A stretch of 64,000 bases of DNA from Nostocales cyanobacterium LEGE 12452. GTDB taxonomy: Bacteria > Cyanobacteriota > Cyanobacteriia > Cyanobacteriales > Nostocaceae. How positions within the stretch are numbered: the first letter of the stretch is position 1; the number at the start of each line of letters is the position of its first letter. The DNA is taken from assembly GCA_015206945.1 (NCBI GenBank), contig JADEXV010000004.1:1-64000 (forward strand), written 5' to 3'. Positions 23,257 to 63,259 of this stretch are shown in pieces. Under the pieces are notes generated by a model, which worked only from the letters and a program-made list of their open reading frames with translations, was not told where the DNA came from and did no database searches. The position numbers and the translations under genes were made by a program.

Positions 23257-23274
23257 AAGTGATATTTCCCAGCT

Positions 23275-36826: not shown

Positions 36827-36827
36827 G

Positions 36828-39800
36828 ATGAGTGTGAAAAACAAAAACATTGAAGACTTTTATCCTCTCTCGCCAATGCAGCAGGGCATTCTCTTCCATA
36901 GTCTTGCAGCCCCTAAATCTGGCGTCTATTTTGAACAATTTAGTTTGACCCTCCAAGGAAAGCTCAACATTTCAGAATTCCATCGCGCATGGGAGTACGT
37001 TGTAGAACGACATTCAATTCTACGAACCTGCTTTGTTTGGGAAGGTTTAAAAGAACCGGTACAAATTGTGCATCGACAGGTGACATTACCTTGGCAGGAA
37101 TATGATTGGCAGGATCTCTCCTCAGAAGAACAACAACAAAAGTTAGAACTTTTGTGGCAAAGCGATCGCTCCAAAGGCTTTGAACTGACGCAGCCACCAT
37201 TGATGCGCCTAACACTAGTTAAACTTTCGGACATCTCCTATAACTTTACCTGGAGTCATCATCATCTATTGCTAGATGGGTGGTCTGTTTATTTGATTTT
37301 TAAAGAAGTCTTTGCTTGTTATAAAGCTTTTTGCAATGCTCAAGATGTTTACCTAGAATCGATTCGCCCATATCGGGATTACATTGTCTGGCTACAGCAA
37401 CAAAACCTATCTGAGGCTGAGGCTTTCTGGCAACAGACGCTTAAAGGTTTTACTACTCCAACACAGCTATCGGTAAATAAAGCAGCTATAAAATTACCAG
37501 CTCAAACAGATGGCTCTAACGAGCGAGAAGTTAAGCTTTCTCTAGTCACAACAGCAGGATTGCAATCTGTAGCAAAGCAACACCAGTTAACGTTAAACAC
37601 TCTACTACAGGGAGCTTGGGCTTTATTATTGAGCCGCTACAGTGGTCAGGAGGATGTAGTTTTTGGGGCAGTAACTTCTGGTCGTCCCCCTACTTTAGCT
37701 AAAGTTGAGTCTATGGTAGGGCTGTTGATTAACACACTGCCGATTAGAGTACAAGTATCACCTGAAGAATTTCTTTTGCCTTGGCTTCAGAAAATCAAAG
37801 AGCAACTAGTTGAAGCACGCGAGTATGAGTATACTCCGTTAGTGAAAATCCAAGGATGGAGCGAAGTTCCCAAAGATTTATCTTTGTTCGAGAGTATTGT
37901 AGTTTTTGAGAATTATCCTATAGATGCTTCCTTACGGCAGAGCGATCTAAATTTCGAGATCAAGGATTTTCATAGCTTTGAAAAAACTAACTATCCGATA
38001 ACTCTAACTGTGATTCCAGGTGAAGAGTTGTTGCTCAAGATTACTTGTGATGATAGCGATCGCTTCGACACTGATACTATCACCCGGATGCTAGGACATT
38101 TGCAGACTTTGTTAGAGGATATGGTAACAAACACAGAGCAACGTCTTTGTGAGTTGTCGCTTTTAACGGAAACTGAGCGACACCAGTTGCTTGTGGAGTG
38201 GAATAATACAGAAGTTGAATATCCTCAACAGCAATGCATTCATGAGTTATTTGAAGCGCAAGTAGAAAAAACACCCGATGCTGTGGCGGTGGTGTTTGAA
38301 GGACAACAGTTGACCTACGGGGAACTGAACGCCAAAGCGAATCAATTGGCACATCATTTGCGCTCGCTGGGAGTAAAACCAGAAGTATTGGTGGGGATTT
38401 GTGTAGAGCGATCGCTCTCTATGGTCATTGGGCTATTAGCCATCCTGAAAGCAGGTGGTGCATACATCCCATTAGATCCAGCATATCCTCAAGAGCGATT
38501 AGCATTTATATTAGAAGACGCCCAAGTGTCAGTGCTGCTGACTCAAACCTCCCTTGTAGAGGTAATGCCGCAACACAAAGCTCAAGTTGTTTGTTTAGAT
38601 GCACATTGGCACAACATTGCCCAACAGAGCAAAGAAAATTTATTATCTGAGCTAACTACTGACAATCTGGCTTATATCATCTATACCTCTGGTTCAACGG
38701 GCAAACCAAAAGGCGTACAAATTACCCACGGTGCTTTGAGTAACTTTTTGTACTCCATGAGGCAAACACCAGGGTTAACTCACGAAGATACTTTACTAGC
38801 GGTAACAACATATTCCTTTGATATTGCGGCGTTGGAACTTTTTCTACCAATCATAGTTGGTGGTTGTTTAGTAATCGCTAGTCGAGAAGTAGCTTCAGAC
38901 GGAACGCAGTTGTCAGCAAAACTGACAGACTCAAAAGCTACAGTTATGCAAGCCACACCAGCTACTTGGCAACTACTTCTAGCAGCAGGTTGGAGTGGCA
39001 ATGAGCAATTAAAAATTCTCTGTGGTGGAGAAGCTTTACCTGGACAATTAGCGAATAAATTATTGCATCGATGCGCCTCTTTATGGAATATGTACGGCCC
39101 GACAGAAACCACGATTTGGTCAGCAGCATCTCAAGTAGAAAATGGTAGTACTATTGTACCGATTAGTGGTGCGATCGCAAATACGCAACTTTATATTCTA
39201 GACCAATACAGCCAGTTAGTTCCTATAGGTGTAGCAGGAGAATTGCATATAGGTGGGGAGGGACTTGCACGAGGCTATTTTAACCGTCCTGACCTGACAG
39301 CAGAAAAATTTATCCCCAATCCTTTCAGTAAAAAAGCTGCACGTCTTTATAAAACAGGGGATTTAGCTCGCTATTTACCAAATGGAGAAATAGAGTACAT
39401 TGGTCGCATTGACCATCAAGTAAAAGTCCGTGGTTTTCGCATTGAACTAGGAGAAATTGAAGCAGTAATCAGCCAATACCCCGCAGTGCTAGAAAGCGTG
39501 GTTATGGCTAGAAAAGACTCCTCTGAAGAGAAGCGCTTGGTAGCTTATCTAGTCCAGAACCCAAAACATCAGGGTTCGGACGAGGAGATGACGAAATTAC
39601 AAACTGAGCAAATTTCCCAGTGGCAGATGGTCTTTGACTCTGAAAAAGATATCTTTAAGCCAATTAATTTTGCTCATGATCCGACTTTCAATATCAGCCT
39701 TTGGAAAAGCAGTTATGGTGGGTTGCCTATTTCAGAAGAAGAGATGCACGAATGGGTAGATCACACAGTTGAGAAAATTTTATCCCTAAAACCAGACCGG

Positions 39801-42800
39801 GTGTTAGAAATAGGCTGTGGCAATGGTTTGCTGTTGTTTAGGATTGCTCCCTCCTGTACCCAATACTTTGGTACAGATTTTTCAAAAGCCGCTCTGCATT
39901 ATACCCAGAAAGTACTAGAAATGCCAGAGCATAATCTATCACAGGTTACTCTTTTGGAAAGAATGGCTGATAACTTCGAGGGTCTTTTGCCAGAAGGTTT
40001 TGACACGATAATTATTAATTCAGTAGTTCAGTACTTTCCTAGTATTGATTATCTATTGCAAGTATTGGAAGATGCCGTGAATATAGTAGAACCTGGGGGT
40101 TCGATCTTTGTGGGAGATATCCGCAGTCTGGGTCTGTTGAAAGCTTTTCACACCTCTGTTCAGCTGCATAATGCCCCTTCTTCTTTATCTACAGTTGAGC
40201 TACAGCAGCGCATACAACAAGCTATTACCCAAGAGGAAGAACTGCTCATTGACCCGGCTTTCTTTATCGCTTTGAAACATCATCTTCCGCAGATTAACCA
40301 TGTGCAAATTCAGCCTAAGCGTGGTCATTACCAAAATGAACTCACGAAGTTTCGCTACGATGTAGTTCTTTATATAGGAACTGAAGTTGATTCTGCTCAA
40401 GAGGGTCATTGGCTGGATTGGCAAAAGCAAAAGTTAACACTGACTTCTGTTCGACAGCTACTAGAGTTAACACAGCCAGATATACTCGGACTGAGTAATG
40501 TGCCAAATGCGCGTCTGTTAAGAGAAATCAAAGCAATAGAACTGCTAGCTAATGATTCAGCAGATGATACAGTAAGCGATATACGTCAAGCTTTAGACTC
40601 AATCAATACTGAGCTTGGGTTAAATCCTGAATCTCTGTGGGATTTGAAACAAGAATTACCATATAACATTGACATCAGTTGGATAAACTCCGGTGCGGAT
40701 GGCAGCTACGATGTTGTCTTTCAAAGATATAAGGCGGAGCTGTTAGAAAACTCCAAACATGTTCCTTATTTTTGTGGAGAAAACGCTTGCCTCAAACCTT
40801 GGAACTTATATGCGAATAATCCTCTACAATCTAAATTTGCTCGTCAAATATTACCGTGGCTACGCCGCTTTTTAGAGTCAAAATTGCCAAGCTATATGCT
40901 GCCAACAAGTTTTGTAATTTTGGAGGCACTGCCATTAACACCCAATGGTAAGGTTGACCGAAAAGCGTTACCAATTTCCGAATTAACACAGATATCATTA
41001 TCGAATATTATTCTTCCTTCCACACCAATTGAGAATTTATTAGCAGGGATTTGGGCTGAAGTACTTGGTGTTGAAAAAGTAAGTATTGATAATAATTTCT
41101 TTGAATTAGGTGGTCATTCATTAATCGCCACTCGTGTAATTTACCGAATCCGGCAAGTGTTTCAAGTAGAGCTTCCTTTACATTATTTATTTGAAAAACC
41201 TACAATAGCTGGGTTAGCAAAAGAAATTGAAAAAGCGATTAAGGTAGACTCAGGAGTTGAGGTAAGAAACATTGAGCGGATTGTGCGATCGCAAGAGTTA
41301 CCACTATCATTTGCTCAACAACGATTATGGTTCCTGGCCCAATTAGAGCCAAATAGTCCCTTCTACAATATGGCTGCTGCTGTTCGCCTAGAGGGACAAT
41401 TGAATGTAGAGGCACTACAACAAAGTTTTAACGAAATTATCAGCCGCCATGAAGCCCTACGAACCAATTTTCACACAATAGAAGGGCAAGCGATCGCTGT
41501 CATCTCGGAAGCGACATCATTAATATTACCAGTATTGGATATTAGCGATTTACCTTTAAATCAACAAGAAGCCGAAGTCAAAAAACAGGCTTCTCAAGAA
41601 GCAGAGAAACCTTTTGATCTCAACGGCGACTTGCTGCTGAGAGTGAAACTATTACGTCTTGGTCAACAAGAACACATACTATTATTAACAATGCACCACA
41701 TCGTCTGTGATGGTTGGTCAATAGATGTACTTGTGAGGGAGTTAGCGACACTTTATCAAGCTTTCTGTGATGGACAACCGTCACCGTTACCTGAACTACC
41801 AATACAGTATGTAGACTTTGCGGCTTGGCAACGACAATGGTTGCAAGGAGAAGTACTCAAAACTCAAACATCTTACTGGCTCAAGCAGTTAAAGAACGCG
41901 CCAAAAGTATTAGAGTTACCCACTGATTATCCCAGACCAGCAATTCAGACCTTCCGGGGTTCGACCTACTCATTCAAGCTATCTAATAAACTCTCTGTTG
42001 CCTTAAATAAATTCAGCCAGCAACAGGGAAGTACTTTATTTATGACCCTGTTGGCAGCTTTCCAAACATTGCTATGGCGTTACACAGGCAGCGAAGATAT
42101 TGTAATCGGTTCGCCGATCGCTAACCGTAACCGAGCAGAAATAGAAGGGCTAATTGGATTTTTTGTCAATACTTTAGTACTGCGGACTAACTTCGCAGAA
42201 AATCCTAGCTTTGAAGAGTTACTAAAACGGGTGCGAGAAGTAGCTTTAGGAGCTTATGCACATCAAGATTTACCCTTTGAGTTGTTAGTTGATCAACTGC
42301 AACCAGAGCGAGACTTAAGCCATACACCACTATTTCAAGTGATGTTTGTGCTTCAGAATGCGCCGATGTCTGCCTTAGAGTTGTCTGGTTTGACTTTAAG
42401 TTTCTTAGAAAGCAATAGTGATAATGCCAAGTTCGATTTAAGCCTACATATAACTGAAACTCTCGATGGTTTAATTGGTTCTTTAGAATACAATACTGAT
42501 TTATTCGAGGGAAGTTCCATACAAAGAATGGTGGCGCATTTGCAAACGTTGCTTGAAGGAATTGTTGCTAATCCACAGCAGCGTTTGTCAGAGTTACCAC
42601 TGTTAACAGAATCTGAGCGACACCAATTAATGGTTGAGTGGAATAATACAGAAGTTGAGTATCCTCAACAGCTATGCATTCATCAGTTATTTGAAGCGCA
42701 GGTAGAACAAACGCCAGATGCAGTAGCAGTCATCTTTAAAGACCAGCAGCTAACCTACCGAGAACTAAATACCAAAGCTAACAAATTAGCACACTATTTA

Positions 42801-45800
42801 CAAACACTGGGCGTAAAACCAGAAATACTGGTTGGCATCTGCGTAGAGCGTTCCCTTGAGATGATAATAGGGCTGTTAGGCATTCTTAAAGCCGGTGGTG
42901 CTTACGTTCCGCTCGACCCAACCTATCCTGAAGAGCGGTTAGCCTTTATGCTAGAAGACTCTTCCATGCCGGTGCTGCTCACTAAGTCACAACTAGTTGA
43001 GAAACTTCCTCAACACTCTGCGCGTGTTCTCTGCTTAGACTCAGACTGGGAAGAAATTGCTTTTCACAGTTTAGAGAACCCAACAAGCAAAGTGAAGCCA
43101 GAAAACTTGGCTTACATTATCTATACATCAGGGTCTACAGGCTTTCCCAAAGGAGTTTTAATCCAACAGCGATCGCTAGTCAATTATACAACTGCTGCGA
43201 TTAATGAATATGAGATAGAGAAGTGCGATCGCGTTTTCCAGTTTGCCTCTATTAGTTTCGATGCTAGTGCCGAAGAAATTTACCCGTGCCTGACTTCAGG
43301 TGCAACGCTTGTATTGCGAACCGATTCTATGTTGGACTCGATTGATATATTTCTGCAAAAGTGCAGGGATTGGAACTTAAGCGTCCTGAGTCTACCAACA
43401 GCCTACTGGCACGAACTGACAGCCAGATTAAGCGAAGAAACCTTGGTACTCCCCCCGTCATTACGCTTGGTAATCATTGGCGGAGAAAAAGCACTGACTG
43501 AACGATGGAAAACTTGGGTTGAGTATGTAGGACAGCGAGTGCGTCTGGTGAATACTTACGGCCCTACAGAAGCCACTGTGGTGGCAACGATATGCGATTT
43601 ATCCGCAACCAATCCAGCATTAACAGAGTTAGCCATCGGTCGTCCGATTTCTAACGTGCAAACATATATTTTAGATTCGTATCAACAACTCGTACCGATT
43701 GGCGTTCCGGGAGAATTGCACATTGGTGGTGATGGACTAGCAAGAGGCTACCTGAATCGTCCCAATTTAACTGATGAGAAATTTATCTTTAATCCCTTTA
43801 GCGACAAATTAGGAGTACGCCTTTACAAAACTGGTGATTTAGCTCGTTATTTACCAAATGGAGATATTGAGTACATAGGTAGAATTGATAACCAAGTAAA
43901 AGTGCGTGGTTTCCGTATTGAACTGGGAGAAATTGAAGCAGTAATCAACCAACACTCCGCAGTCCGAGAAGCTGTAGTGGTAGTACGCAATGATTCAGGA
44001 GATTCTCAACGTTTAGTTGCATATTTAATTCCTCAAAAAGAACAAACCCTGACAATCACTGAACTACGTGGCTTTCTAGAGTCAAAATTGCCAAGCTACA
44101 TGATGCCAACAAGTTTTGTGATGTTAGAGGTTTTACCACTAACACCTAATGGTAAGGTTGACCGCAGAGCATTACCTGTACCTGATACACTACGTCCAGA
44201 ACTTCAAGAAACTTTTATTGCACCACAAACGACCGTTGAAAAACAGCTTGTTAAGATTTGGGCAAAAGTATTGGGCTTGGAGAAGATAGGTATAAACGAC
44301 AACTTTTTTGAATTAGGAGGAGATTCTATCCTCAGCATTCAAGTTATATCCAAAGCCAACCAAGCAGGGCTACACCTAACTCCTAAACAGATATTTCAGC
44401 ACCAGACTATTGCCCAATTGGCAACAGTGGTTGGTACGACTCAGAAAATTATAGCTCCACAAGGTGTGTTAACTGGATCGTTAGAGCTAACCCCTATTCA
44501 ACACTGGTTTTTTGAACAAAAGCAACCAGAACCACATCACTGGAATCAAGCGGTGCTGCTAGAAGTCAAACAGACAATTGACCCTGTAGCTTTAAAGCAA
44601 GTAGTGCAGTATTTACAAGAGCATCATGATGTTCTACGTTTGCGATTTAAACAAGAATTTAGCTTTGAGGCCATTATTGTCAGCCCTGATAATGTAATAC
44701 CGCTAACACATTTAGATTTATCAGCACTGTCAACAAACGAACAAGCCATTGCAATGGAAGCAACAGCAGCTAAACTCCAAGCTAGATTGAATCTGTCAGA
44801 AGGGCCGTTATTCCAAGTTGCTATTTTTGACTTAGGTTGTAATCAATCAAGTCGTTTACTTTGGTTGATTCATCACTTAGCGGTTGATGGGGTTTCTTGG
44901 CGAGTCCTAATAGAGGATTTGCAAACAGCTTACCAGCAAATTAGTCAGGGCAAAGTCATACAATTGCCACCCAAAACAACTTCTTTCAAAGACTGGTCTA
45001 AGCGCCTGCAACAATATGCGCGGTCAGAAAAACTATACTCAGAACTAGATTACTGGCTCACTACCCTGAGTCAACCCGTTGATCCTATACCTAGAGATTA
45101 TCCAGGCAAAAACAACACAGAAGCCCTAGCTTGCACGGTGTCAGTATCCCTTGGAGTAGAAGAAACTAAAATTTTATTGCATCAGGTTTTAGCGGCTTAC
45201 CGGGCGGAAATTAATGATGTCTTGTTAACTGCACTGTTACAATCATTTGCCCAATGGACAGGAGAAAATTCTTTACTATTTGATTTAGAAGGGCATGGGC
45301 GAGAAGAACTATTTGAAGATATAGATTTATCGAGAACTGTTGGTTGGTTTACATCTGTCTTTCCGGTATATCTAAGTTTTGAAAATGCTCCTGAGCCAGA
45401 AAAAGCTTTAAATTTAATTAAAGAGCAACTACGGGCTATTCCAAATCGTGGTGTTGGTTACGGAATGTTACGCTATCTCAGCACAGAGGAGGAAATTATT
45501 CAACAACTGAGTTCTTTACCAAAAGCTGAAGTAGGTTTTAACTATTTGGGACAGTTAGACAATTTTCTCCAAGAGTCGCACTTATTTAGATCAATTAAAG
45601 GGTCAATTGGGCCAATCCATAGCCCCAAAGGAAACAGGTCTTATTTAATAGAAGTAGAGACAATGGTTGTGAATGGACAGTTGCAACTAGATTGGATCTA
45701 CAGCAAAGATATACATCACCAAAACACGATCACAGATTTAGCCCAAAGTATGTTGTCGGCGCTACGTTTGCTGATTGCTCGTTGTCAATCTGCACAAGAG

Positions 45801-45887
45801 TTTAGCTACATTCCTTCAGACTTTCCTGAAGCTGAACTTAGCCAAGCAGAGCTAGATCAAGTTTTTGAAGAATTGCAGTTGAATTAA
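36828..45887 (+). CDS. Bimodular NRPS: C-A(Gly)-nMT-PCP-C-A(Lys-like)-PCP-E
   Basis: A 3019-residue synthetase. The ATG at 36828, one base after the previous stop and preceded by GGGAGA, is preferred to the in-frame ATG at 36705 inside the upstream gene. Domains: C about 8-440 with YPLSPMQQGILFHSL and HHLLLDG, the form expected after an epimerase; A about 470-890; N-methyltransferase inserted at about 905-1330 (VLEIGCGNGLLLF near 992); PCP LGGHS near 1427; C about 1490-1920 (HHIVCDG); A about 1950-2470; PCP LGGDS near 2497; E about 2550-2985 (HHLAVDG, EGHGRE). Specificity residues read DILQCGMIWK (close to Gly codes) and DAESIGTVVK (close to the bacitracin Lys code). Predicted output: N-methyl-Gly then a D-configured Lys-like residue. 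Confidence 0.92.
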   Translation: MSVKNKNIEDFYPLSPMQQGILFHSLAAPKSGVYFEQFSLTLQGKLNISEFHRAWEYVVERHSILRTCFVWEGLKEPVQIVHRQVTLPWQEYDWQDLSSEEQQQKLELLWQSDRSKGFELTQPPLMRLTLVKLSDISYNFTWSHHHLLLDGWSVYLIFKEVFACYKAFCNAQDVYLESIRPYRDYIVWLQQQNLSEAEAFWQQTLKGFTTPTQLSVNKAAIKLPAQTDGSNEREVKLSLVTTAGLQSVAKQHQLTLNTLLQGAWALLLSRYSGQEDVVFGAVTSGRPPTLAKVESMVGLLINTLPIRVQVSPEEFLLPWLQKIKEQLVEAREYEYTPLVKIQGWSEVPKDLSLFESIVVFENYPIDASLRQSDLNFEIKDFHSFEKTNYPITLTVIPGEELLLKITCDDSDRFDTDTITRMLGHLQTLLEDMVTNTEQRLCELSLLTETERHQLLVEWNNTEVEYPQQQCIHELFEAQVEKTPDAVAVVFEGQQLTYGELNAKANQLAHHLRSLGVKPEVLVGICVERSLSMVIGLLAILKAGGAYIPLDPAYPQERLAFILEDAQVSVLLTQTSLVEVMPQHKAQVVCLDAHWHNIAQQSKENLLSELTTDNLAYIIYTSGSTGKPKGVQITHGALSNFLYSMRQTPGLTHEDTLLAVTTYSFDIAALELFLPIIVGGCLVIASREVASDGTQLSAKLTDSKATVMQATPATWQLLLAAGWSGNEQLKILCGGEALPGQLANKLLHRCASLWNMYGPTETTIWSAASQVENGSTIVPISGAIANTQLYILDQYSQLVPIGVAGELHIGGEGLARGYFNRPDLTAEKFIPNPFSKKAARLYKTGDLARYLPNGEIEYIGRIDHQVKVRGFRIELGEIEAVISQYPAVLESVVMARKDSSEEKRLVAYLVQNPKHQGSDEEMTKLQTEQISQWQMVFDSEKDIFKPINFAHDPTFNISLWKSSYGGLPISEEEMHEWVDHTVEKILSLKPDRVLEIGCGNGLLLFRIAPSCTQYFGTDFSKAALHYTQKVLEMPEHNLSQVTLLERMADNFEGLLPEGFDTIIINSVVQYFPSIDYLLQVLEDAVNIVEPGGSIFVGDIRSLGLLKAFHTSVQLHNAPSSLSTVELQQRIQQAITQEEELLIDPAFFIALKHHLPQINHVQIQPKRGHYQNELTKFRYDVVLYIGTEVDSAQEGHWLDWQKQKLTLTSVRQLLELTQPDILGLSNVPNARLLREIKAIELLANDSADDTVSDIRQALDSINTELGLNPESLWDLKQELPYNIDISWINSGADGSYDVVFQRYKAELLENSKHVPYFCGENACLKPWNLYANNPLQSKFARQILPWLRRFLESKLPSYMLPTSFVILEALPLTPNGKVDRKALPISELTQISLSNIILPSTPIENLLAGIWAEVLGVEKVSIDNNFFELGGHSLIATRVIYRIRQVFQVELPLHYLFEKPTIAGLAKEIEKAIKVDSGVEVRNIERIVRSQELPLSFAQQRLWFLAQLEPNSPFYNMAAAVRLEGQLNVEALQQSFNEIISRHEALRTNFHTIEGQAIAVISEATSLILPVLDISDLPLNQQEAEVKKQASQEAEKPFDLNGDLLLRVKLLRLGQQEHILLLTMHHIVCDGWSIDVLVRELATLYQAFCDGQPSPLPELPIQYVDFAAWQRQWLQGEVLKTQTSYWLKQLKNAPKVLELPTDYPRPAIQTFRGSTYSFKLSNKLSVALNKFSQQQGSTLFMTLLAAFQTLLWRYTGSEDIVIGSPIANRNRAEIEGLIGFFVNTLVLRTNFAENPSFEELLKRVREVALGAYAHQDLPFELLVDQLQPERDLSHTPLFQVMFVLQNAPMSALELSGLTLSFLESNSDNAKFDLSLHITETLDGLIGSLEYNTDLFEGSSIQRMVAHLQTLLEGIVANPQQRLSELPLLTESERHQLMVEWNNTEVEYPQQLCIHQLFEAQVEQTPDAVAVIFKDQQLTYRELNTKANKLAHYLQTLGVKPEILVGICVERSLEMIIGLLGILKAGGAYVPLDPTYPEERLAFMLEDSSMPVLLTKSQLVEKLPQHSARVLCLDSDWEEIAFHSLENPTSKVKPENLAYIIYTSGSTGFPKGVLIQQRSLVNYTTAAINEYEIEKCDRVFQFASISFDASAEEIYPCLTSGATLVLRTDSMLDSIDIFLQKCRDWNLSVLSLPTAYWHELTARLSEETLVLPPSLRLVIIGGEKALTERWKTWVEYVGQRVRLVNTYGPTEATVVATICDLSATNPALTELAIGRPISNVQTYILDSYQQLVPIGVPGELHIGGDGLARGYLNRPNLTDEKFIFNPFSDKLGVRLYKTGDLARYLPNGDIEYIGRIDNQVKVRGFRIELGEIEAVINQHSAVREAVVVVRNDSGDSQRLVAYLIPQKEQTLTITELRGFLESKLPSYMMPTSFVMLEVLPLTPNGKVDRRALPVPDTLRPELQETFIAPQTTVEKQLVKIWAKVLGLEKIGINDNFFELGGDSILSIQVISKANQAGLHLTPKQIFQHQTIAQLATVVGTTQKIIAPQGVLTGSLELTPIQHWFFEQKQPEPHHWNQAVLLEVKQTIDPVALKQVVQYLQEHHDVLRLRFKQEFSFEAIIVSPDNVIPLTHLDLSALSTNEQAIAMEATAAKLQARLNLSEGPLFQVAIFDLGCNQSSRLLWLIHHLAVDGVSWRVLIEDLQTAYQQISQGKVIQLPPKTTSFKDWSKRLQQYARSEKLYSELDYWLTTLSQPVDPIPRDYPGKNNTEALACTVSVSLGVEETKILLHQVLAAYRAEINDVLLTALLQSFAQWTGENSLLFDLEGHGREELFEDIDLSRTVGWFTSVFPVYLSFENAPEPEKALNLIKEQLRAIPNRGVGYGMLRYLSTEEEIIQQLSSLPKAEVGFNYLGQLDNFLQESHLFRSIKGSIGPIHSPKGNRSYLIEVETMVVNGQLQLDWIYSKDIHHQNTITDLAQSMLSALRLLIARCQSAQEFSYIPSDFPEAELSQAELDQVFEELQLN

Positions 45888-45926
45888 TCCAATTTTTTGG
45901 TAAAACTCATAAAAGCTTACTATGCT

Positions 45927-48900
45927 ATGAATAAAAAAGATGTAGAAGCAATTTATCCACTTTCTCCAGCACAACAAGGTATGCTGTTTGGGACTTTATC
46001 TGCTCCCAATTCAGGTATACATATTGAGCAGACTAGTTGTATTTTGCAGGGAACTTTAAATGTGCAAGCTTTTGAGCAAGCTTGGCAGTCGGTAGTAAAT
46101 CGCCACTCAATATTGAGAACTGCTTTTGTTTGGAAGAACCAAGATGAGCCAAGACAAGTAGTATTCCGGCAAGTAGTAGTGACTATAAACTCACAAGATT
46201 GGCGAAAATTAGAGCAATCAGAACAGCAAAAGCAACTGGAAGACTATTTAAAGGCTGACCGTCAGCAAGGGTTTGACTTCTCCAAACCCCCACTCATGCG
46301 CTTCGCGCTGTTTCGAGTTAACGATGATAGCTATCAATTTGTGTGGAGTCATCACCACATTTCGATGGATGGCTGGTGTTTGTTCATTATTTTGAAAGAA
46401 GTGCTGGCTTATTATCAAGCGAGCATTAAAAATGAAGATATACACTTAAAACCAACTCGTCCTTATAAAGACTATATTAGTTGGCTAAGACAGCAAGATT
46501 TGGTAGCAGCAGAGAAATTTTGGCAGCATACACTACAAGGTTTCACTCAACCCACAGTTTTAGGACAAATAGCACAGGCAGATAAATTATCTGATTCTTC
46601 AGAAGAAGGCTACGGTCAAGAAGAAATCTCATTATCAGCATCAATTACGACTCTCCTAAAGTCTTTAGCCCAAGAACATAAAATTACCTTAAATACATTA
46701 ATACAAGGAGTTTGGGCGTTACTCTTAAGCCGTTATGCTACTAGTGGAGATGTCTTATTTGGCATCACGGTCTCTGGTCGTTCAGCAGATGTGGTTGGGA
46801 TCGATTCGATGATTGGTCTATTTATCAACACCTTACCTCTGCGAATAAAAGTGGCTCCTGAAGTATCTTTCTGGGCTTGGTTACAAAACATCCATGCTCA
46901 TAACGAAGAAATCCGCCAATATGAATATAGTTCTGCGGGACAAGTCCATCAATGGAGCGAAGTACCAGGATCGCTACCTCTATATGAAAGTCTGCTGGTT
47001 TTTCAGAACTATCCTACTGACTATTCCATTTTGCGATCGACTAACTTAGATATTTCTGTAGGTCAAGTTAGTTCCCAAGGAGCGCAAACCCAATATCCTC
47101 TCACCTTGATGGTTACAGTTGATTTAGAATGCAAGTTTTGCTTGGTTTACGATAAAAGCTGTTTAAATAGTGTTAATATTAATCTAATTAATAAGCATTT
47201 ATTGGATTTAATACAAAGCATTGCTAATGATACAAACCTAAATTTGGCAACGCTCTTAAATCAAATCCCTGCTGAAGAAATACCTCATATTAGACCACGT
47301 AAATTAAGAAATGCGATTTCAAGTCCGCGTACTCCAGTTGAAGAAATCCTAGTCAATATTTGGACTGAAGTACTAAAACTGGATCAAGTGGATATTTATG
47401 AGAATTTTTTTGAATTAGGTGGGCACTCCCTGCTAGCTACTCAGGTAATATCCAAAGTAAGCCAGAGCTTTAATTTGCAACTTCCTTTACGTCACCTTTT
47501 TGAGTCGCCAACTATAGTAGAACTAGCCAAAAGCATTGAAGCAGTTAAGCAAGTTACATCTAGTTTTTTATTTCCATCTATAAAACGGGTTTCACGGGAC
47601 ATAGAGTTACCCTTATCTTTTGCTCAAAAAAGATTATGGTTTCTAGATCAATTGGAAAAACAAAGTTCTACTTATAACGAGCCAGCTGCTGTTTACCTGA
47701 ATGGACGCCTGGACATAAATGCTTTAGAACAAAGTTTTACAGAGCTTTTACAGCGTCAAGAAGCATTACGTACTACCTTTAAAAAAGTAAATGGAGAGCC
47801 TGTGCAGGTAATTGCTCCATCTCTCTCAATCTCCCTGCCAATAACAGATTTAAGTGAAATTTTACAAGAAGAACAGTTTGTTAAAATGCAGCATTTAATT
47901 CAGAAAGAAGCTCAACGACCTTTTGACTTAGCTAAGGGTCCATTGCTGCGAGCTAGTTTATTGCGCTTGGGTGAAGAATCTTATGTATTGCTGTTAGTAA
48001 TACACCATATTATTTCTGATGGCTGGTCAATTGGTATATTTATTCGTGAATTTTCCGCCCTTTATAGAGCTTTTGTTAAAGGAGAATCTTCACCCTTACC
48101 AGAATTGCCAATTCAATATGCAGACTTCGCTTACTGGCAAAATCACTGGTTGCAAGGAGAAGTGATGGAGAAACACTTATCTTATTGGAAACAGCAACTT
48201 GCTAACTTACCTGTGCTGGAATTGCCTACCGACTATCCCCGTCCTGAAATCCAAACTTTTCGCGGTAGTAGGCAACATCTAGAATTGCCAAAAGAACTTT
48301 GTGAAGAAATTAAAGCATTAAGTCGTAGGGAAGGAGTCACTCTATTTATGACTCTAGTGGCAGCATTTAAAACTTTGATGCATTACTGCACAAATCAGGA
48401 TGATATTGTTGTAGGTACTGATGTCGCTAACCGTAATTTTACAGAAACGGAGAATATTATTGGTTTTTTTGTTAACCAGCTAGTATTACGTATCTATCTT
48501 GGAGGCAATCCAACCTTTCAAGAATTATTGAAACGTGTTCGTGAGGTGACATTGGCTGCTTACGAACATCAGGATATGCCATTTGACCAGTTAGTATTAG
48601 CTCTAAAACCAGAGCGAGATTTGAGCCGTACACTTCTGTTCCAATCCAAGTTTGTCCTGCAAAATACCCCAACATACTCATTGGGGCTAGAGGGCTTAAA
48701 ATTGAAAATTGAAAATATTGATAATGGTACAGCTAAATTTGATTTACTACTTAATATGTGGGAAAGTGAACAAGGTTTGAGTGGCAGTTTTGAATACAGC
48801 ACAGACTTATTTAATGTTTCCACTATCGCTAAATTAATTACAGATTATGAAATTATTTTGCGTGCCGTTGTTGCTCAACCTAATATTAAATCTACAGCTA

Positions 48901-50000
48901 TAAAAGAAATACTGCTAACAGCAGATAAACAAAGGCAAGATGCGAAGCAGCAGGAATTTCAACAAGTCCGCCGCCAAAAATTTAAAGCATTTAAGTCTCA
49001 GCCAAAACCTACAGTAATTAACTTATCTCAACAAGAATTAATTACAGAATCTTTTCTACAATCTGAAGGTAATCTACCTTTAGTAATTACGCCTAAATTC
49101 AGCGATTTGAATTTACCAATTTGGGCTGAGGATAATCAACAATTCATTATTAATAATTTGTTTAAATATGGAGGAATTTTATTTAGGGGCTTTGCTGTTA
49201 ATCAAAAAGAAGATTTTGAGCAATTCGTTAGTGCTGTATGCCCTCAATTAATGCCTTACATAGAATCTTCCACACCTCGTACTAAGTTAAGTGATAAAGT
49301 TTATACATCTACTGAATTTCCAGCCGATCAAACCATTGCTTTACATAATGAATCATCATATTCCAGTACCTATCCAATGAAAATATGGTTTTGCTGTATT
49401 GAACCTGCAAACCAAGGAGGAGAAACTCCGATTGCTAATGTGAGAAAAGTATTTCAACGTATTCATCCTCAGATTAGAGAACGCTTTCAAGAAAAAGGCT
49501 GGATGTTAGTTCGCAACTATGGTAATGGATTTGGTTTACCTTGGGAAAAAGCTTTTCACACAACAGATAAAGCTGTGATGGAAGATTATTGTCGTAATGC
49601 TTGCATTCAGGTTGAGTGGAAAGATAGTAACCGTTTAAGAACTCGTCAAGTTCGTCCAGCCATAGCACAACATCCAATGACTGGTGAAATGGTTTGGTTT
49701 AATCATGTTGTTTTTTGGCATGTGTCGAGTTTACAAACACAATTTCGAGAAAAATTTCTCAGCGAGTTTACAGAAGAAGATTTACCCTACAACACTTTTT
49801 ATGGTGATGGTTCTTCTATTGAAGACTCAGTTATTGCGGAAATTCGTGAAGCTTATCAACAAGAAATGATTATTTATCCTTGGAAAAAAGGGGATATATT
49901 AATGCTAGATAATATGTTGACTGCTCACGGACGAAATTCTTACTCTGGTTCCAGAAAAATCTTAACTGCGATGGGTGAGCCTTTTCAACATCATTTTTAA
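45927..50000 (+). CDS. A-less NRPS with fused TauD hydroxylase: C-PCP-C-TauD
   Basis: About 1357 residues from ATG 45927; the frame could also open at TTG 45897. Domains: C about 5-430 (YPLSPAQQGMLF, HHHISMDG near 142), the type found after epimerases; PCP about 460-540 (LGGHSLL, Ser near 498); a second C-family domain about 555-990 (HHIISDG near 692); a linker; and an Fe(II)/2-oxoglutarate TauD/SyrP-like hydroxylase about 1045-1357. The last has HNESSYSSTYP near 1139 giving the HxE metal pair, and TAHGRNSYSG near 1333 giving the distal His and 2OG-binding Arg. There is no adenylation domain. The likely reaction is beta-hydroxylation of a carrier-bound Asp, the second C-like domain acting like the interface domains known in beta-hydroxyaspartate siderophore synthetases. 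The amino acid must be loaded in trans, perhaps by the next gene. Confidence 0.9.
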   Translation: MNKKDVEAIYPLSPAQQGMLFGTLSAPNSGIHIEQTSCILQGTLNVQAFEQAWQSVVNRHSILRTAFVWKNQDEPRQVVFRQVVVTINSQDWRKLEQSEQQKQLEDYLKADRQQGFDFSKPPLMRFALFRVNDDSYQFVWSHHHISMDGWCLFIILKEVLAYYQASIKNEDIHLKPTRPYKDYISWLRQQDLVAAEKFWQHTLQGFTQPTVLGQIAQADKLSDSSEEGYGQEEISLSASITTLLKSLAQEHKITLNTLIQGVWALLLSRYATSGDVLFGITVSGRSADVVGIDSMIGLFINTLPLRIKVAPEVSFWAWLQNIHAHNEEIRQYEYSSAGQVHQWSEVPGSLPLYESLLVFQNYPTDYSILRSTNLDISVGQVSSQGAQTQYPLTLMVTVDLECKFCLVYDKSCLNSVNINLINKHLLDLIQSIANDTNLNLATLLNQIPAEEIPHIRPRKLRNAISSPRTPVEEILVNIWTEVLKLDQVDIYENFFELGGHSLLATQVISKVSQSFNLQLPLRHLFESPTIVELAKSIEAVKQVTSSFLFPSIKRVSRDIELPLSFAQKRLWFLDQLEKQSSTYNEPAAVYLNGRLDINALEQSFTELLQRQEALRTTFKKVNGEPVQVIAPSLSISLPITDLSEILQEEQFVKMQHLIQKEAQRPFDLAKGPLLRASLLRLGEESYVLLLVIHHIISDGWSIGIFIREFSALYRAFVKGESSPLPELPIQYADFAYWQNHWLQGEVMEKHLSYWKQQLANLPVLELPTDYPRPEIQTFRGSRQHLELPKELCEEIKALSRREGVTLFMTLVAAFKTLMHYCTNQDDIVVGTDVANRNFTETENIIGFFVNQLVLRIYLGGNPTFQELLKRVREVTLAAYEHQDMPFDQLVLALKPERDLSRTLLFQSKFVLQNTPTYSLGLEGLKLKIENIDNGTAKFDLLLNMWESEQGLSGSFEYSTDLFNVSTIAKLITDYEIILRAVVAQPNIKSTAIKEILLTADKQRQDAKQQEFQQVRRQKFKAFKSQPKPTVINLSQQELITESFLQSEGNLPLVITPKFSDLNLPIWAEDNQQFIINNLFKYGGILFRGFAVNQKEDFEQFVSAVCPQLMPYIESSTPRTKLSDKVYTSTEFPADQTIALHNESSYSSTYPMKIWFCCIEPANQGGETPIANVRKVFQRIHPQIRERFQEKGWMLVRNYGNGFGLPWEKAFHTTDKAVMEDYCRNACIQVEWKDSNRLRTRQVRPAIAQHPMTGEMVWFNHVVFWHVSSLQTQFREKFLSEFTEEDLPYNTFYGDGSSIEDSVIAEIREAYQQEMIIYPWKKGDILMLDNMLTAHGRNSYSGSRKILTAMGEPFQHHF

Positions 50001-50077
50001 ATAATTGTTCAGTTATCAAAGGCGTACACTAGACATCATGACTAATTAGCCACTACAACTTTTTCAATCCAGATATT

Positions 50078-53000
50078 ATGAATAATAAATCAATTTACGG
50101 TTTTCAGCTTTCGCCACAACAAAAACATTCATGGCTATTACAACAAAATAACCATAGCTGTGCCTATCGTTCATTTTGTACGGTGGAAATTACAGGTGAT
50201 TTAAATATCGAAGCATTGAAAATTGCGTTAAAAAATGTTGTCAGGAAACATCAAATTCTTAGTACCAGTTTTCGTTGCTTACCAGGAATGAATATTCCAA
50301 TACAAGTAATTGAAAATGGTGGTAATTTATTAATAGAAGAACATGACTTCAGAACGATAGAATCTGAAGAAAAAAATAATGCTGTTGAATTACTTATTGA
50401 ATCTGCTAAACAGCAAAATTTTGAATTGGAAAAATCATCCTCACTACAGATATCTCTAGCTACTCTTTCAGCATCTAAAAATATATTGCTGTTAAACTTA
50501 CCTGTTCTATACGCAGATGCAATCTCACTTAATAATTTAGTGGCAGAAATAAGCCGTGCCTATACTGGGCATTTACATAATGATGAAGCAGTGCAATACG
50601 TAGTCTTTTCAGATTGGCAAAATGAATTACTAGAATCAGAAGAAGCAGAAATTGGTAGAAAATATTGGCAACAAAAAGATATCACCCATATTTTCGACTT
50701 GAAACTGCCAAATGAAAAGTTACTTTCTGGAGAAACGGAATTTAAACCTCTAATTTTCATTCAGACAATTTCATCTAAATTAACAGCACAAATAACCGCG
50801 TTCGTCAAAAATTTTAATACTACTGAATCAATACTATTCCTAACATGTTGGCAAATACTACTATGGCGTTTGACCAATGTATCCAATATGGTTATTGGCA
50901 CCAGTTGCGATGGGAGATCGGAAGAAGAACTTCAAGAAATGCTAGGACTACTTGCCAAATATGTACCAGTGAATTGCCGTCTCGAAAGTAGCTTAAAGTT
51001 GAACGAAGTTATAGAACAAATTACTTTTACTCAAACTCAAGCAAATGAATGGCAAGATTGTTTTAATTGGGAACTACTTTCAGGATTAAATAAAGTTACC
51101 AATTATGTACCTTTTTTCCCATTCTGTTTCGACTTTATAGACAAAACTTCTAACTCCTGGACTCCAAATGCAATTACATTTTCTCTATCAAAGCAATATG
51201 TTTGTTTCGATAAGTTCAAAGTAAAATTATCATTGATACGTACAGAAAACTCTCTTCATGCTGAATGGTACTACGATACAGAATTATTTTCACCAGAAGA
51301 TATCGAACGTTTAGCAGGACAATTTTTTACTCTCTTAGAAAGTGCAATTAATCATCCATACTCATTCGTAAGTGAATTAGACATACTCAGCAATATTGAA
51401 AGACAAGAACTGTTAATTGAATTTAATAATACACAATCTGTTTTTCCTATAAATAAATGTTTTCATCAACTTTTTGCAGAACAAGTAGATCGCACGCCAG
51501 AAAACATTGCTATTATTTATCAAAATCAGCAGTTTACCTACCAAGAATTAAACAGTCGTGCTAACCAGCTAGCTCATTACTTACAAAAATTAGGCGTTAA
51601 GCCAGATGTAATGGTAGGGCTTTGTGTTGAGCGATCGCCTTTAATGTTGATTGCACTTTTAGGCATCTTAAAAGCAGGTGGTGCTTATGTACCGATTGAC
51701 CCTAGCTATCCCTTAGAAAGAAAAGCTTTTATCTTAAACGATTCTCAAATGCCAGTGCTGCTGACTCAACAGCATATAATAGTAGATTTAGCTACAAATG
51801 GAATTAAAGTAATTTGTATAGATAGTGATTGGGAAACTATAAACCAACAAAAAAATGAAAATCCAATTGCTACAACAAGCGAATTAAATTTAGCATATAT
51901 TATTTACACCTCCGGTTCCACTGGTAAACCTAAAGGAACTCTAATCCCCCATCAAGGATTAGTTAACTACCTAAGTTGGGCTACTCAAAGATATGCAGTA
52001 GAACAAGGAGTAGGAACTTTAGTTCACTCACCTTTGGGTTTTGACTTAACAATCACTAGTCTTTTCTCACCTTTATTAGTTGGTGGCACAGTAGAATTAC
52101 TATCAGAACAACAAGGTATTGAAACCCTTTCTCAAGCTTTAAACAAAAGCTCAAATTTAAGTTTGGTGAAAATTACTCCCGCTCACTTAGATTTGCTGAA
52201 GCAACAGTTATCCAAAGAAGAGATAGCAAATAAAACGAGAGCGTTTATTATTGGTGGCGAAAACTTATTAGCTGAAAACATTACCTTCTGGCAAGATGTA
52301 GCTCCAGATACAATATTAGTAAACGAATATGGCCCCACAGAGACAGTAGTAGGCTGCTGTGTTTATCAGGTTCCAGTCGGGAAACATTCTACAGGTTCCA
52401 TACCCATTGGGAAGCCGATCGCTAATACCCAGCTGTACATTTTAGACCAATATTTGCAACCAGTACCAATGGGAGTACAGGGTGAATTGCATATTGGTGG
52501 ACTTGGATTAGCCAGAGGTTATCTAAATCAACCTGAATTAACAGCCCTGAAGTTTATCCCTAATCCCTTTAGTAAACAAGAAGGCGATCGCCTTTACAAA
52601 ACAGGTGATTTAGTTCGGTTTTTACCAAGTGGAGATATTGAGTATATCGGTCGCATCGATAACCAAGTTAAAATACGTGGTTTCCGTGTTGAACTAGGAG
52701 AAATTGAAGCGGTTATAAATCAACATCCATTAGTATCTGCAAGTGTAGTTATCCTTCGGGAGGATAAATCTGGAAATCAAACTTTAATAGCTTATACAAC
52801 TCTCCAGCCAGACAAAACATTAACAACTCCTGAACTGCGCCGCTTCTTACAGAATAAATTGCTTGACCACATGATACCCACTGCCTTTATGATATTAGAG
52901 GCATTACCATTAACATCTAATGGCAAAGTAGACCGTCAAGCATTACCAATACCCGATGTTCTACGCCCAGAATTAGAAATTGCTTATGTGATACCGCAAA

Positions 53001-53329
53001 CAGAGGTAGAAAAGACAATAGCCTCTGTTTGGCGAAAAGCTTTGAATCTTGAAAAAATAGGTATTCACGATAATTTTTTTGAAATTGGCGGTCATTCATT
53101 ACTTTTAATTACAGTTCACAGCCAATTGCAGGAAATTTTAAAAGTAGAACTATCAACCCTGGATTTATTTAGATATCCTACGATCAATTCTTTAGCCAAC
53201 TATTTAAATTCATCTCCTAATTCCACAGCAGTTTTACAGGGAAATGATACTCAAGCAGAGAAAATTTCATCTGGGAAGGCGCAACAAAGAAAACGTCTCC
53301 AAAAAATTAAATCAGTTGAAAATAATTAA
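50078..53329 (+). CDS. NRPS with degenerate C domain: C*-A(Asn/Asp)-PCP
   Basis: A 1083-residue protein. The first domain (about 5-430) has the C-domain framework (QLSPQQKHSWLL, FCFDFID), but the catalytic HHxxxDG is replaced by LPVLYADAIS near 140-149, so it lacks both histidines. The A domain spans about 460-960 (YTSGSTGKPKG near 609); specificity residues read DLTKIGEVGK, an Asn-type code also near Asp codes. PCP about 970-1045 has IGGHSLL. The Lys/Arg-rich tail (SGKAQQRKRLQKIKS) resembles tails of NRPSs that dock to a PKS, and a PKS gene does follow, 14 bp on. It may supply Asp/Asn to the A-less PCP upstream, or act as its own module. Confidence 0.88.
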   Translation: MNNKSIYGFQLSPQQKHSWLLQQNNHSCAYRSFCTVEITGDLNIEALKIALKNVVRKHQILSTSFRCLPGMNIPIQVIENGGNLLIEEHDFRTIESEEKNNAVELLIESAKQQNFELEKSSSLQISLATLSASKNILLLNLPVLYADAISLNNLVAEISRAYTGHLHNDEAVQYVVFSDWQNELLESEEAEIGRKYWQQKDITHIFDLKLPNEKLLSGETEFKPLIFIQTISSKLTAQITAFVKNFNTTESILFLTCWQILLWRLTNVSNMVIGTSCDGRSEEELQEMLGLLAKYVPVNCRLESSLKLNEVIEQITFTQTQANEWQDCFNWELLSGLNKVTNYVPFFPFCFDFIDKTSNSWTPNAITFSLSKQYVCFDKFKVKLSLIRTENSLHAEWYYDTELFSPEDIERLAGQFFTLLESAINHPYSFVSELDILSNIERQELLIEFNNTQSVFPINKCFHQLFAEQVDRTPENIAIIYQNQQFTYQELNSRANQLAHYLQKLGVKPDVMVGLCVERSPLMLIALLGILKAGGAYVPIDPSYPLERKAFILNDSQMPVLLTQQHIIVDLATNGIKVICIDSDWETINQQKNENPIATTSELNLAYIIYTSGSTGKPKGTLIPHQGLVNYLSWATQRYAVEQGVGTLVHSPLGFDLTITSLFSPLLVGGTVELLSEQQGIETLSQALNKSSNLSLVKITPAHLDLLKQQLSKEEIANKTRAFIIGGENLLAENITFWQDVAPDTILVNEYGPTETVVGCCVYQVPVGKHSTGSIPIGKPIANTQLYILDQYLQPVPMGVQGELHIGGLGLARGYLNQPELTALKFIPNPFSKQEGDRLYKTGDLVRFLPSGDIEYIGRIDNQVKIRGFRVELGEIEAVINQHPLVSASVVILREDKSGNQTLIAYTTLQPDKTLTTPELRRFLQNKLLDHMIPTAFMILEALPLTSNGKVDRQALPIPDVLRPELEIAYVIPQTEVEKTIASVWRKALNLEKIGIHDNFFEIGGHSLLLITVHSQLQEILKVELSTLDLFRYPTINSLANYLNSSPNSTAVLQGNDTQAEKISSGKAQQRKRLQKIKSVENN

Positions 53330-61484: not shown

Positions 61485-61597
61485 AATTAAATAAATTAAC
61501 CGCAAACTACGGAGATAACACTGATGAGAGCTTTTTTGCTTAAGCCCTAAAGATGATCGGTCATGCAGCAAAAAATTTACCTATTATAGGAGACCAA
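61485..61597. other. Leader with mini-ORF before the decarboxylase
   Basis: A GGAG at 61511-61514 precedes an ATG at 61524-61526 that encodes only MRAFLLKP before TAA (61548-61550). A second in-frame ATG for the decarboxylase at 61553 has little ribosome binding site. The mini-ORF may be a relic or a translational leader. Confidence 0.4.
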
Positions 61598-63259
61598 ATG
61601 ACATTAAGTGAAAAAAGTTTATTATCCACAAATAATCTTTCTCAAACTGAGCGAATCTTACATTCTGAAATTGGTGAGTATATAAAACAAATGTTTGTAC
61701 CTACTCTGGGGAAATCCATCGAAACCCAGATAGATGAGATAGTTAATGATTATTCTGAGGAGTTTTTAATTACAAAAAATGCAAATACTAATATTGAGAT
61801 TGACTTGATAATTAAGAATTTTGGCGAGAGCAAAATACCTTTAGAACCTACTGATTTTGAAAGCTATTTTCAATACTTAGGTGATAACGTTATTTCCCAC
61901 TCTATACATACATCTTCGCCACAATTTATCGGTCACATGACCTCGGCGCTTCCTTCTTTTGTACGACCTCTAGCTAAACTAATGACAGCAATGAATCAAA
62001 ACGCTGTCAAAATAGAGACTGCTAAAGCTTTGAGCTTTTATGAACGTGAAGCTTTAGCAATGATGCATCGACAAATTTATAATTTATCCGATAATTTCTA
62101 CACCCAGCATATTCAAAATAATCAGAGTACATTAGGAATTTTAACTTCTGGTGGTACAACAGCCAATATCACAGCACTGTGGTGTGCCCGAAATAAATCT
62201 TTGGGAGCAAAAAATGAGTTTTTAGGCGTAGAAAAAGAAGGTTTAACAGCAGCTCTAAATTTTTATGGCTACAAAGGAGCAGTTGTGATTGGCTCCGAAT
62301 TGATGCATTTTTCTTTTGATAAAGCTGCGGATTTGATGGGCATTAGTACGCAAAATTTGATTAGAGTGGCCGTTGACTCTAACAATCGAGTTAACATACA
62401 AGCATTACGCCAAGCCGTTGCAGATTGTCGCCAGAAAAACTTACATATTATAGCTATTGTTGGTATTGCTGGAACTACAGATTCTGGTAGTGTCGATCCC
62501 CTAGAAGATATTGCGGAGATAGCCCAAGAAAATAATATACATTTTCATGTAGATGCTGCTTGGGGTGGCCCAGTTATCTTTTCTCGAAAACATCAACAAA
62601 AGCTTGCTGGTATTGAAAAAGCTGATTCAGTGACCATTGATGGACATAAACAATTGTATTTACCAATGGGTATTGGTATGGTATTTTTCCACGACCCTTA
62701 TCTAGCTTCTTCAATCGAAAAACATGCTAGCTATACTATGCGTAAGGGATCGTTTGATTTAGGTAAACGTGCTTTAGAAGGTTCTCGACCGGGCATGGCT
62801 TTATTTTTACACGCTGCTCTAAAGCTGATTGGGCTTAAAGGATATGAGTTTTTGATTGATGAAGGAATTCGGAAAACTCAATACATGGCTGCTCGGATTT
62901 CGGTGATGCCCGAATTTCAATTGTTGGCAGATCCTGATACTAATCTATTAATTTATCGCTATGTTCCAGAACAATTTAGAGGGGTAATTGCGAAAAATGA
63001 ATTAACAGAAACAGAAAACCAAATCATCAATAATTTTAATGAATATTTACAAAAGATGCAACGTCAGATTGGCCGCACTTTTATTTCACGAACAACAAAA
63101 ACAACTATAAGCTTGGATAAAGAACTTCCTGTAATTGCCATGCGTGCAGTTATTGCCAATCCATTAACTACTGAAGAAGATATTGACGCAGTTTTAAATG
63201 ACCAGATTCAGATTGCTTCTGAAATTTCAATTTTACATTTATCAAAAATGAATAATTAA
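61598..63259 (+). CDS. PLP-dependent decarboxylase, PanP/glutamate-decarboxylase-like
   Basis: A group II PLP decarboxylase of about 553 residues. I prefer the ATG at 61598 (MTLSEKSLL), which has TAGGAGA at 61587-61593; an in-frame ATG at 61553 would add 15 residues. Motifs: HTSSPQFIGHMTSALP and NQNAVKIETAKALSFYERE near 110-155, TSGGTTANITALWCARN near 185, HFHVDAAWGGPVIFSR near 318-333, and the PLP Lys in SVTIDGHKQLYLPMG near 350. The family includes Vibrio PanP (aspartate 1-decarboxylase) and glutamate/diaminobutyrate decarboxylases. It is embedded between NRPS and PKS genes, so it probably makes a decarboxylated building block or release partner (beta-alanine, a diamine or similar). The exact substrate cannot be read from sequence. 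Confidence 0.88.
   Translation: MTLSEKSLLSTNNLSQTERILHSEIGEYIKQMFVPTLGKSIETQIDEIVNDYSEEFLITKNANTNIEIDLIIKNFGESKIPLEPTDFESYFQYLGDNVISHSIHTSSPQFIGHMTSALPSFVRPLAKLMTAMNQNAVKIETAKALSFYEREALAMMHRQIYNLSDNFYTQHIQNNQSTLGILTSGGTTANITALWCARNKSLGAKNEFLGVEKEGLTAALNFYGYKGAVVIGSELMHFSFDKAADLMGISTQNLIRVAVDSNNRVNIQALRQAVADCRQKNLHIIAIVGIAGTTDSGSVDPLEDIAEIAQENNIHFHVDAAWGGPVIFSRKHQQKLAGIEKADSVTIDGHKQLYLPMGIGMVFFHDPYLASSIEKHASYTMRKGSFDLGKRALEGSRPGMALFLHAALKLIGLKGYEFLIDEGIRKTQYMAARISVMPEFQLLADPDTNLLIYRYVPEQFRGVIAKNELTETENQIINNFNEYLQKMQRQIGRTFISRTTKTTISLDKELPVIAMRAVIANPLTTEEDIDAVLNDQIQIASEISILHLSKMNN

Follow-up and report, generated by a model that had tools for sequence, protein, structure and literature searches.

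Nonribosomal peptide synthetases (NRPS) follow an assembly-line rule of one adenylation (A) domain per residue. Two described siderophore systems combine such synthetases with a fused hydroxylase: in cyanochelin B the NRPS-fused hydroxylase precedes the aspartate module CcsI, to which the authors assign L-threo-beta-hydroxyaspartate, and in potashchelin the synthetase PtcB of Halomonas has the order condensation (C)-TauD-C-A(Asp)-peptidyl carrier protein (PCP), with beta-hydroxyaspartate proposed to arise in the adjacent module. Modules lacking an A domain have been described elsewhere: CmnI of capreomycin synthesis was shown to be loaded by the A domain of another module, in fungal siderophore synthesis SidD, Nps6 and SidC depend on A domains that lie upstream (PMC12400406), and SyrE is complemented by SyrB1. 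Here we describe a protein of the order C-PCP-C-TauD, without an A domain, encoded at 45927-50000 of a 64-kb stretch from Nostocales cyanobacterium LEGE 12452 (positions 1 to 64,000 of contig JADEXV010000004.1, assembly GCA_015206945.1; hereafter the window), which is the start of a 98-kb contig in an 8.4-Mb draft genome of 551 contigs. Besides the paper just cited, passages of the following papers were drawn on: PMC12628792, PMC12971057, PMC12230676, PMC10212144, PMC12210259, PMC7100376, PMC10999976, PMC4247773, PMC8949500, PMC6562677 and PMC12184294.

As in cyanochelin B (CcsFGH then CcsI; Leptolyngbya sp. NIES-3755, AP017310.1), the TauD domain of the window ends one protein and the next protein opens with an interface-like C domain followed by an Asp-like A domain and a PCP, in a siderophore setting. 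However, the module before C-TauD in cyanochelin B has the A code DILQLGLIW, presumably of the Gly type, and no A-less unit is present. PtcB similarly places C-TauD before C-A(Asp)-PCP, but its published order contains no A-less C-PCP. CmnI and VioI (viomycin), SidD, Nps6 and SidC resemble the 45927 protein, as we interpret it, in having an A-less module that uses the A domain of another module; they belong to other lineages, and the passages on them do not describe an epimerase-attached unit (PMC12400406).

The best explanation of the locus as a whole, to which we assign a probability of about 0.5, is an aspartate module split between two proteins, with an A-less and trans-loaded C-PCP inserted before it. 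The second C domain (C2) and TauD would be the front half of the aspartate module divided between the 45927 protein and the 50078 protein: C2 would form the peptide bond, TauD would beta-hydroxylate the Asp that the 50078 protein holds on its PCP, and the inactive first C-family domain of that protein would be the interface domain. By comparison with the known systems this part is very probable. The first C domain (C1) would accept the epimerised D-peptide and join it to an amino acid held by the PCP behind it. That A-less PCP would be charged in trans, with the A domain of the PCP-epimerisation (E) module just before it as the loader, so that a D-X-L-X pair would be built and its L-residue passed to the L-type C2. 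This second part, the loading by the preceding A domain with a D-X-L-X product, we propose tentatively and at slightly less than even odds. Anachelin was considered as a characterised D-Ser-L-Ser example and set aside, since the passages on it describe no A-less module.

A Pfam scan of the 1367-aa open reading frame (ORF) at 45897-50000 found two Condensation domains, one PP-binding domain and one TauD domain, and no AMP-binding domain; the domain models built for this analysis returned the same C-PCP-C-TauD order. The ATG at 45927 is codon 11 of the ORF opened by TTG 45897, and residue numbers of the protein (P0001) run from this TTG, those based on the ATG being lower by 10. Its features are as follows.

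45927-50000, forward strand: C-PCP-C-TauD protein, ATG start; the ORF reaches back to TTG 45897
45945-47261, forward strand: C1, a DCL condensation domain that belongs to the A-less clade, with an unaltered HHISMDG; DGWC (C after DGW), typical of the clade
47262-47336, forward strand: C-PCP linker of 25 aa at the usual place of an A domain; IPxxQIPxxRP-like, as in other A-less units
47346-47531, forward strand: PCP, GGHSL with intact Ser511 (47427-47429)
47529-47606, forward strand: crossover zone of the chimera; left side like the A-less relatives, right side like the A-containing Nostoc clusters
47604-48938, forward strand: C2, condensation domain of the LCL-like kind with an unaltered HHIISDG; no interface domain
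49104-49964, forward strand: TauD-type Fe(II)/2OG hydroxylase with H-x-E...H and the Arg residues in place

The TauD domain has the H-x-E motif (as HNE), the distal H and two Arg residues, all of them invariant in 81/81 TauD domains compared. The initial annotation of this DNA had described a C-PCP-C-TauD protein with an intact PCP serine, a fused hydroxylase with a complete HxE...H set and no A domain, and every element of this description was borne out by the two sets of domain models and the motifs. It had also argued that the PCP must be loaded in trans if it carries an amino acid, a conclusion that the sequence of a PCP without its own A domain supports. The sequence features expected of trans-loaded modules of the CmnI and SidD type are present, namely an intact C domain and PCP together with an absent A domain. 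Alternatively, this PCP might be charged by an independent A or A-PCP protein encoded at another site in the genome, as SyrB1 does in the syringomycin precedent, and in a 551-contig draft genome such a gene could escape detection. However, a scan of the genome for A domains (E 1e-20 or better) found no stand-alone A domain on the 98-kb contig, where those found lie in multidomain proteins, and the short ORFs elsewhere resemble contig-edge pieces or acyl-CoA ligases (by length, position and 27% identity). We thus regard a separate loader as quite unlikely.

The A-less architecture is not due to chance or to an assembly error, because A-less relatives (C-PCP-C, with TauD fused or not) were found in at least 15 other genomes of the family and a query over the C-PCP junction was spanned in at least 30 of 217 family genomes, that of the window included (any match at the same threshold in 65/217). 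The scan of these 217 genomes gave at least 12 C-PCP-C-TauD and 4 C-PCP-C proteins, again with the window included, and among 388 genomes of the class the junction query matched in at least 5, two of which lie outside the family (G094 and G247; handles with G denote genomes and those with L stretches of DNA). All searches were seeded with the A-less DCL protein at 45927, so that A-less units with other C types would escape them, and the multi-genome scans scored no more than 2 to 10 candidates in each genome, which makes the counts lower bounds. In G094 an E domain is followed by C-PCP-thioesterase (TE). In G247, which belongs to another family of the class, two A-less C-PCP copies are broken across several frames (L076, L211, L212).

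The unit occurs in three contexts: before C-TauD, as E-C-PCP-TE, and as a free C-PCP before KS-AT-KR-PCP. The TE-context clusters G409 and G567 seem nostopeptolide-like by the order of their A codes. An E domain precedes the unit in 16/16 TauD-context cases and in 13/13 others with the upstream side visible; four TE-context units are known only from short stretches in which the upstream side is out of view. The G247 copies, G094, the contig-cut G548 and G499, where only E-C is visible, were left out of the 33 A-less units. To judge from the sequences, the unit appears to move between pathways together with its epimerase, and the A-less modules appear to be a conserved family spliced into different assembly lines. 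The usual arrangement among relatives retains the A domain. The stretches L049-L075, 27 in number and drawn from the family and class to which the window belongs, comprise 21 with A-PCP(-E)-C-TauD on a single protein, 5 whose C-TauD protein has no PCP and 1 with a separate TauD; 12 of the 21 have a Gly-type A code immediately ahead of C-TauD. Among the matches listed from the open-licence PMC literature, queries on A-less modules included, no passage describes an A-less E-linked C-PCP unit.

Phylogeny sets this unit apart. The set of C and E domains (n=394) was taken from the contig of the window, A-less relatives and A-containing relatives and was labelled by position; it leaves out L013, L055 and L058 (near-copies of L052, L009 and L010) and C or E matches shorter than about 330 residues, and from L107-L118 it takes only L107-L109 and L118, with L110, L112 and L117 represented by G487, G491 and G562. 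The 31 A-less C domains that stand before C2 or TE form a clade of their own in two trees, each time with support 1.0, and all 33, with the two before KS added, group together with one Trichormus C-TauD tip (support 0.988 and 0.979). The clade is nested in the DCL clade with support of 0.713, 0.94 and 1.0, the last with a different alignment, trimming and model. The Trichormus tip comes from a plasmid of Trichormus variabilis (L012, 14914-17753), where a PCP standing alone comes first and a C-TauD protein second; it is the C domain of this C-TauD protein that joins the A-less clade.

The catalytic HHxxxDG motif is kept in 31/31 A-less C domains and the PCP serine in 33/33 units, and the C-PCP linker measures 25-40 residues, with an IPxxQIPxxRP-like motif in both the C-TauD and the TE contexts. 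Three positions distinguish the clade from the 46 other after-E domains: Y363 (31/31, versus F in 46/46), H351 (28/31, versus Q in 45/46) and C161 (28/31, versus S in 40/46), the last not being exclusive, as a related PvdL C domain in the PDB likewise has C. In an AlphaFold model of C1-PCP made from a 13-sequence alignment the mean pLDDT was 66.4, with values below 50 across most of residues 342-374, a stretch that holds several of the clade-typical residues, which is too low for conclusions on structure. Between the window and G455 the dN/dS was about 0.24 for C1 and 0.13 for the PCP (a rough value, as dS is above 1), so by sequence the C1-PCP half of the 45927 protein is under purifying selection relative to G455.

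The two halves of the protein have different relatives. Compared in stretches of 40 residues, residues 1-520 share 68-88% identity with the A-less G455 and 25-62% with the A-containing L107, residues 521-560 share 51% and 47%, and over residues 561-1360 the values are 22-70% for G455 and 68-95% for L107. By this pattern of identity the 45927 protein is a natural chimera with its junction near residues 545-570. The Nostoc-type C-A-PCP-C-TauD clusters (L107-L112) are like the window in C2 (82-84% identical), TauD (89-92%) and the downstream A-PCP (88%); unlike the window they have the A domain, and their C1 is 25-60% identical per 40-residue stretch (L107, G487). The flanks of the protein are divided as well. 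The module directly upstream is

41292-45779, forward strand: C-A-PCP-E, the second module of the 36828 protein, code DAESIGTVV; its PCP-E is kin of the PCP-E before the G455 and G442 A-less units

and its PCP is closest to G442 (86%), L113 (83%) and G455 (82%), its E domain to G455 (75%) and G442 (71%). On the other side C2 (84%), TauD (92%), the 50078 protein (74% and 88% for its two parts) and the next polyketide synthase (PKS; 87%) are closest to L107-type clusters. The C-A-PCP-C-TauD proteins of these clusters also match the first module of the 36828 protein, at 67-69% identity across 904-944 residues, and their A code, where read (G487, G491, G562), is DILQLGMIW, which we take to be of the Gly type.

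We infer, as the simplest account, that a block with PCP-E / C-PCP at its end entered between this Gly-type module and C2-TauD. Simple deletion of the A domain from the Gly-type module was rejected, since the C1-PCP half is of different origin: it is not the A-containing version minus its A domain but part of a conserved A-less clade of its own, and its dN/dS is low. The same two facts speak against a defective module, that is, a dead assembly line whose A domain was lost recently and in frame, and although the closest C2-TauD homologues do retain that domain, we consider such a loss extremely improbable. Recombination of NRPS blocks outside the classical C-A-T borders is also described for the Nostoc megasynthases of minutumamides and nostopeptolide KVJ3; the passages on them do not mention an A-less C-PCP unit.

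A degenerate HHxxxDG motif is a feature of interface domains in beta-hydroxyaspartate synthetases. In our set the HHxxxD motif is intact in 73/73 C domains with TauD as the next domain (within 2.5 kb), whereas both His are lost in 73/74 C domains with TauD as the previous domain; the exception is a Janthinobacterium domain behind a stand-alone TauD. The lost-motif clade holds 81 tips in the first tree (73 of the 74 post-TauD domains and 8 labelled as other; support 1.0) and 73 of the 74 post-TauD domains in the second, made with another alignment, trimming and model (support 0.996). Its members include a Methylocystis domain (L156), the domain of BAU16012 (L010, AP017310.1), the protein after the fused hydroxylase, which is taken to be CcsI of cyanochelin B, and the first domain of the 50078 protein. 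The latter is a C-family domain (PF00668, E 1.2e-56) with the degenerate motif PVLYADA, and it opens the second part of the split module.

50078-51418, forward strand: interface-like C-family domain opening the 50078 protein, HHxxxDG replaced by PVLYADA
51473-53206, forward strand: A domain (code DLTKIGEVG) and PCP completing the split Asp module

C2 of the 45927 protein has neither mark of an interface domain: its HHIISDG is intact, and it falls outside the clade of the cyanochelin B domain and inside a pre-TauD LCL-like clade (66 of 73 pre-TauD and 7 other C domains, support 0.971). C2 as an interface domain is therefore rejected. The initial annotation had placed an interface domain directly before the hydroxylase, and that part has to be given up, since the phylogeny groups C2 with LCL-like domains, an outcome that the annotation itself had named as refuting, and the interface-like domain stands at the start of the 50078 protein. 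The HHxxxD counts and the clades thus make C2 the probable condensing domain of the Asp module, with the interface-like domain in the next protein. The annotation had further linked the hydroxylase with the A-less PCP; on the model of cyanochelin B and potashchelin, the Asp on the 50078 protein is the more likely target. The clusters G398, G505 and G467 (L140-L145) have an A-less C-PCP-C without TauD directly after it, yet their next C domain belongs to the interface-like clade; the hydroxylase may have been lost there or may act from elsewhere. The 4-kb block of lowest G+C in the window (48001-52000, 0.347) spans the C2-TauD and interface region.

Which amino acid, if any, the A-less PCP receives is judged from the neighbours of the unit. 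The module before it has 9 different A codes in 16 clusters, so the unit is independent of an A domain specific for one amino acid, unless that domain is coded elsewhere. The A domain after it has a DLTK.. or DATK.. code, presumably Asp/Asn-like, in 15/16 TauD-context clusters, as would suit the A domain of the 50078 protein loading both PCPs and giving two adjacent Asp, one or both hydroxylated by TauD. However, TE-context units have no A domain downstream within the same protein, which counts against the next module as the general loader, the next A code in G531 is DSALIAEVW, and C1 tracks the downstream A domain weakly (r 0.37); this makes such double loading doubtful to the point of being rather improbable. 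The C2 behind the A-less PCP falls into the pre-TauD LCL-like clade in 16/16 cases (the 12 fused ones through their absence from the listed exceptions), whereas in G392 the C domain that stands behind E and before TauD is DCL. Therefore, there is a modest lean towards an added L- or achiral residue and hence towards loading by the preceding A domain.

The distances of C1 correlate best with those of the upstream E domain (0.89), followed by its own PCP (0.77), C2 (0.67), the next C* (0.59) and the upstream PCP (0.55), and less with the upstream C (0.38), the downstream A (0.37), the downstream PCP (0.34) and the upstream A (0.29). That E and C1 are the best-correlated pair, that the unit stands behind E in all 29/29 viewed cases with varied upstream A domains and varied next domains, and that clade-typical changes lie near the active-site motifs would all agree with a transfer without elongation, in which the A-less DCL domain passes only the D-epimer of the peptide to its own empty PCP and adds no residue; the unit would then gate stereochemistry ahead of domains with no selection for D, such as an LCL C domain, TE or KS. 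On the other hand HHxxxDG is kept in 31/31, and C2 is LCL-like though it would receive a D-residue. To our knowledge no characterised C domain behaves in this way, and the review passages on A-less modules name none. We consider non-elongating transfer unlikely, if worth serious attention, and its wider form, a portable adaptor whose DCL-derived C domain was re-tuned for D-chains and joins an E-ended module to an LCL C domain, TE or KS, a shade less likely still.

Several observations weigh against the split module with a trans-loaded insert that we prefer. The C-TauD of L066 stands directly after E and is likewise a member of the pre-TauD LCL-like clade; this makes the stereochemical argument from C2 less than strict, and the force of that argument against non-elongating transfer is not decisive either. 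The A-less PCP is no nearer to its own upstream PCP (43.3% versus 44.3% expected) or its own downstream PCP (49.2% versus 50.9% expected) than to those of other clusters; co-similarity was thus discarded as a guide, supporting neither loading partner. The free change of the upstream A domain fits equally a unit that needs no A domain, H351, Y363 and C161 at otherwise near-invariant positions could mean altered chemistry, and G398, G505 and G467 have no TauD directly after the A-less unit. Moreover, the matrix correlations and the clade tests have phylogenetic signal in common. Two models can do without a dedicated partner: either the preceding A domain would charge the PCP, or the chain would be passed on with no residue added.

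The remaining genes of the cluster give the setting in which the split Asp module would work.

16282-19128, forward strand: TonB-dependent receptor with an AMIN domain
19140-25343: siderophore transport, with a periplasmic binding protein (forward strand) and a TM-ATPase fused ABC transporter, an ABC ATPase and two FecCD permeases (all reverse strand)
30113: FAAL-ACP-C-A-PCP-E synthetase protein
ATG about 36828: C-A(with methyltransferase)-PCP-C-A-PCP-E protein
53344: KS-AT-KR-ACP protein
58086: C-A-PCP protein
61553-63259: PLP-dependent decarboxylase gene

Past the end of the window the cluster continues with two further PKS modules, a methyltransferase, C-A-PCP-TE and two P450s. The uptake genes upstream of the synthetase comprise the TonB receptor, two periplasmic binding proteins and two FecCD permeases, beside ABC exporter-like genes. 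Together with the FAAL start and the NRPS-fused TauD before an Asp-type module they give the cluster the make-up of the cyanochelin type, and the beta-hydroxyaspartate siderophore setting suggested at the outset is supported by these genes. Among the matches listed, an NCBIfam scan of five window proteins gave no family more specific than the general NRPS, PKS and ligase ones. The ORF listed as 36705-45887 (TTG start) overlaps the preceding gene; ATG 36828, directly past the stop of that gene, is the likelier start. The A codes of the cluster are DLFNNALTY, DILQLGMIW, DAESIGTVV, DLTKIGEVG, DFWNIGMVH and VDWIISLAN, which we take to stand for Ala, Gly, a Lys-like residue, Asp/Asn, Thr and a beta-Ala-like residue, respectively. 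The A code of the last module, VDWIISLAN (L044:12593-16714), occurs in the same cluster as the PLP decarboxylase gene, and given the presumed beta-alanine-like meaning of this code the enzyme could supply beta-alanine from aspartate. In the G455, G442, G488, G392, G403 and G225 clusters a second short TauD-like protein (280-302 aa) stands just before a KS-AT-KR-PCP-E protein.

In these beta-hydroxyaspartate modules the place of the interface-like domain is at the start of the following protein. The conserved A-less clade departs from the rule of one A domain per residue in at least 30 of 217 genomes of one cyanobacterial family. If trans-loading is true, product predictions for such clusters may miss by one residue; if transfer without elongation is true, the unit would be a new kind of NRPS part. 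Under either reading, nature has left a transplanted block with a visible splice zone, which is of use for NRPS engineering.

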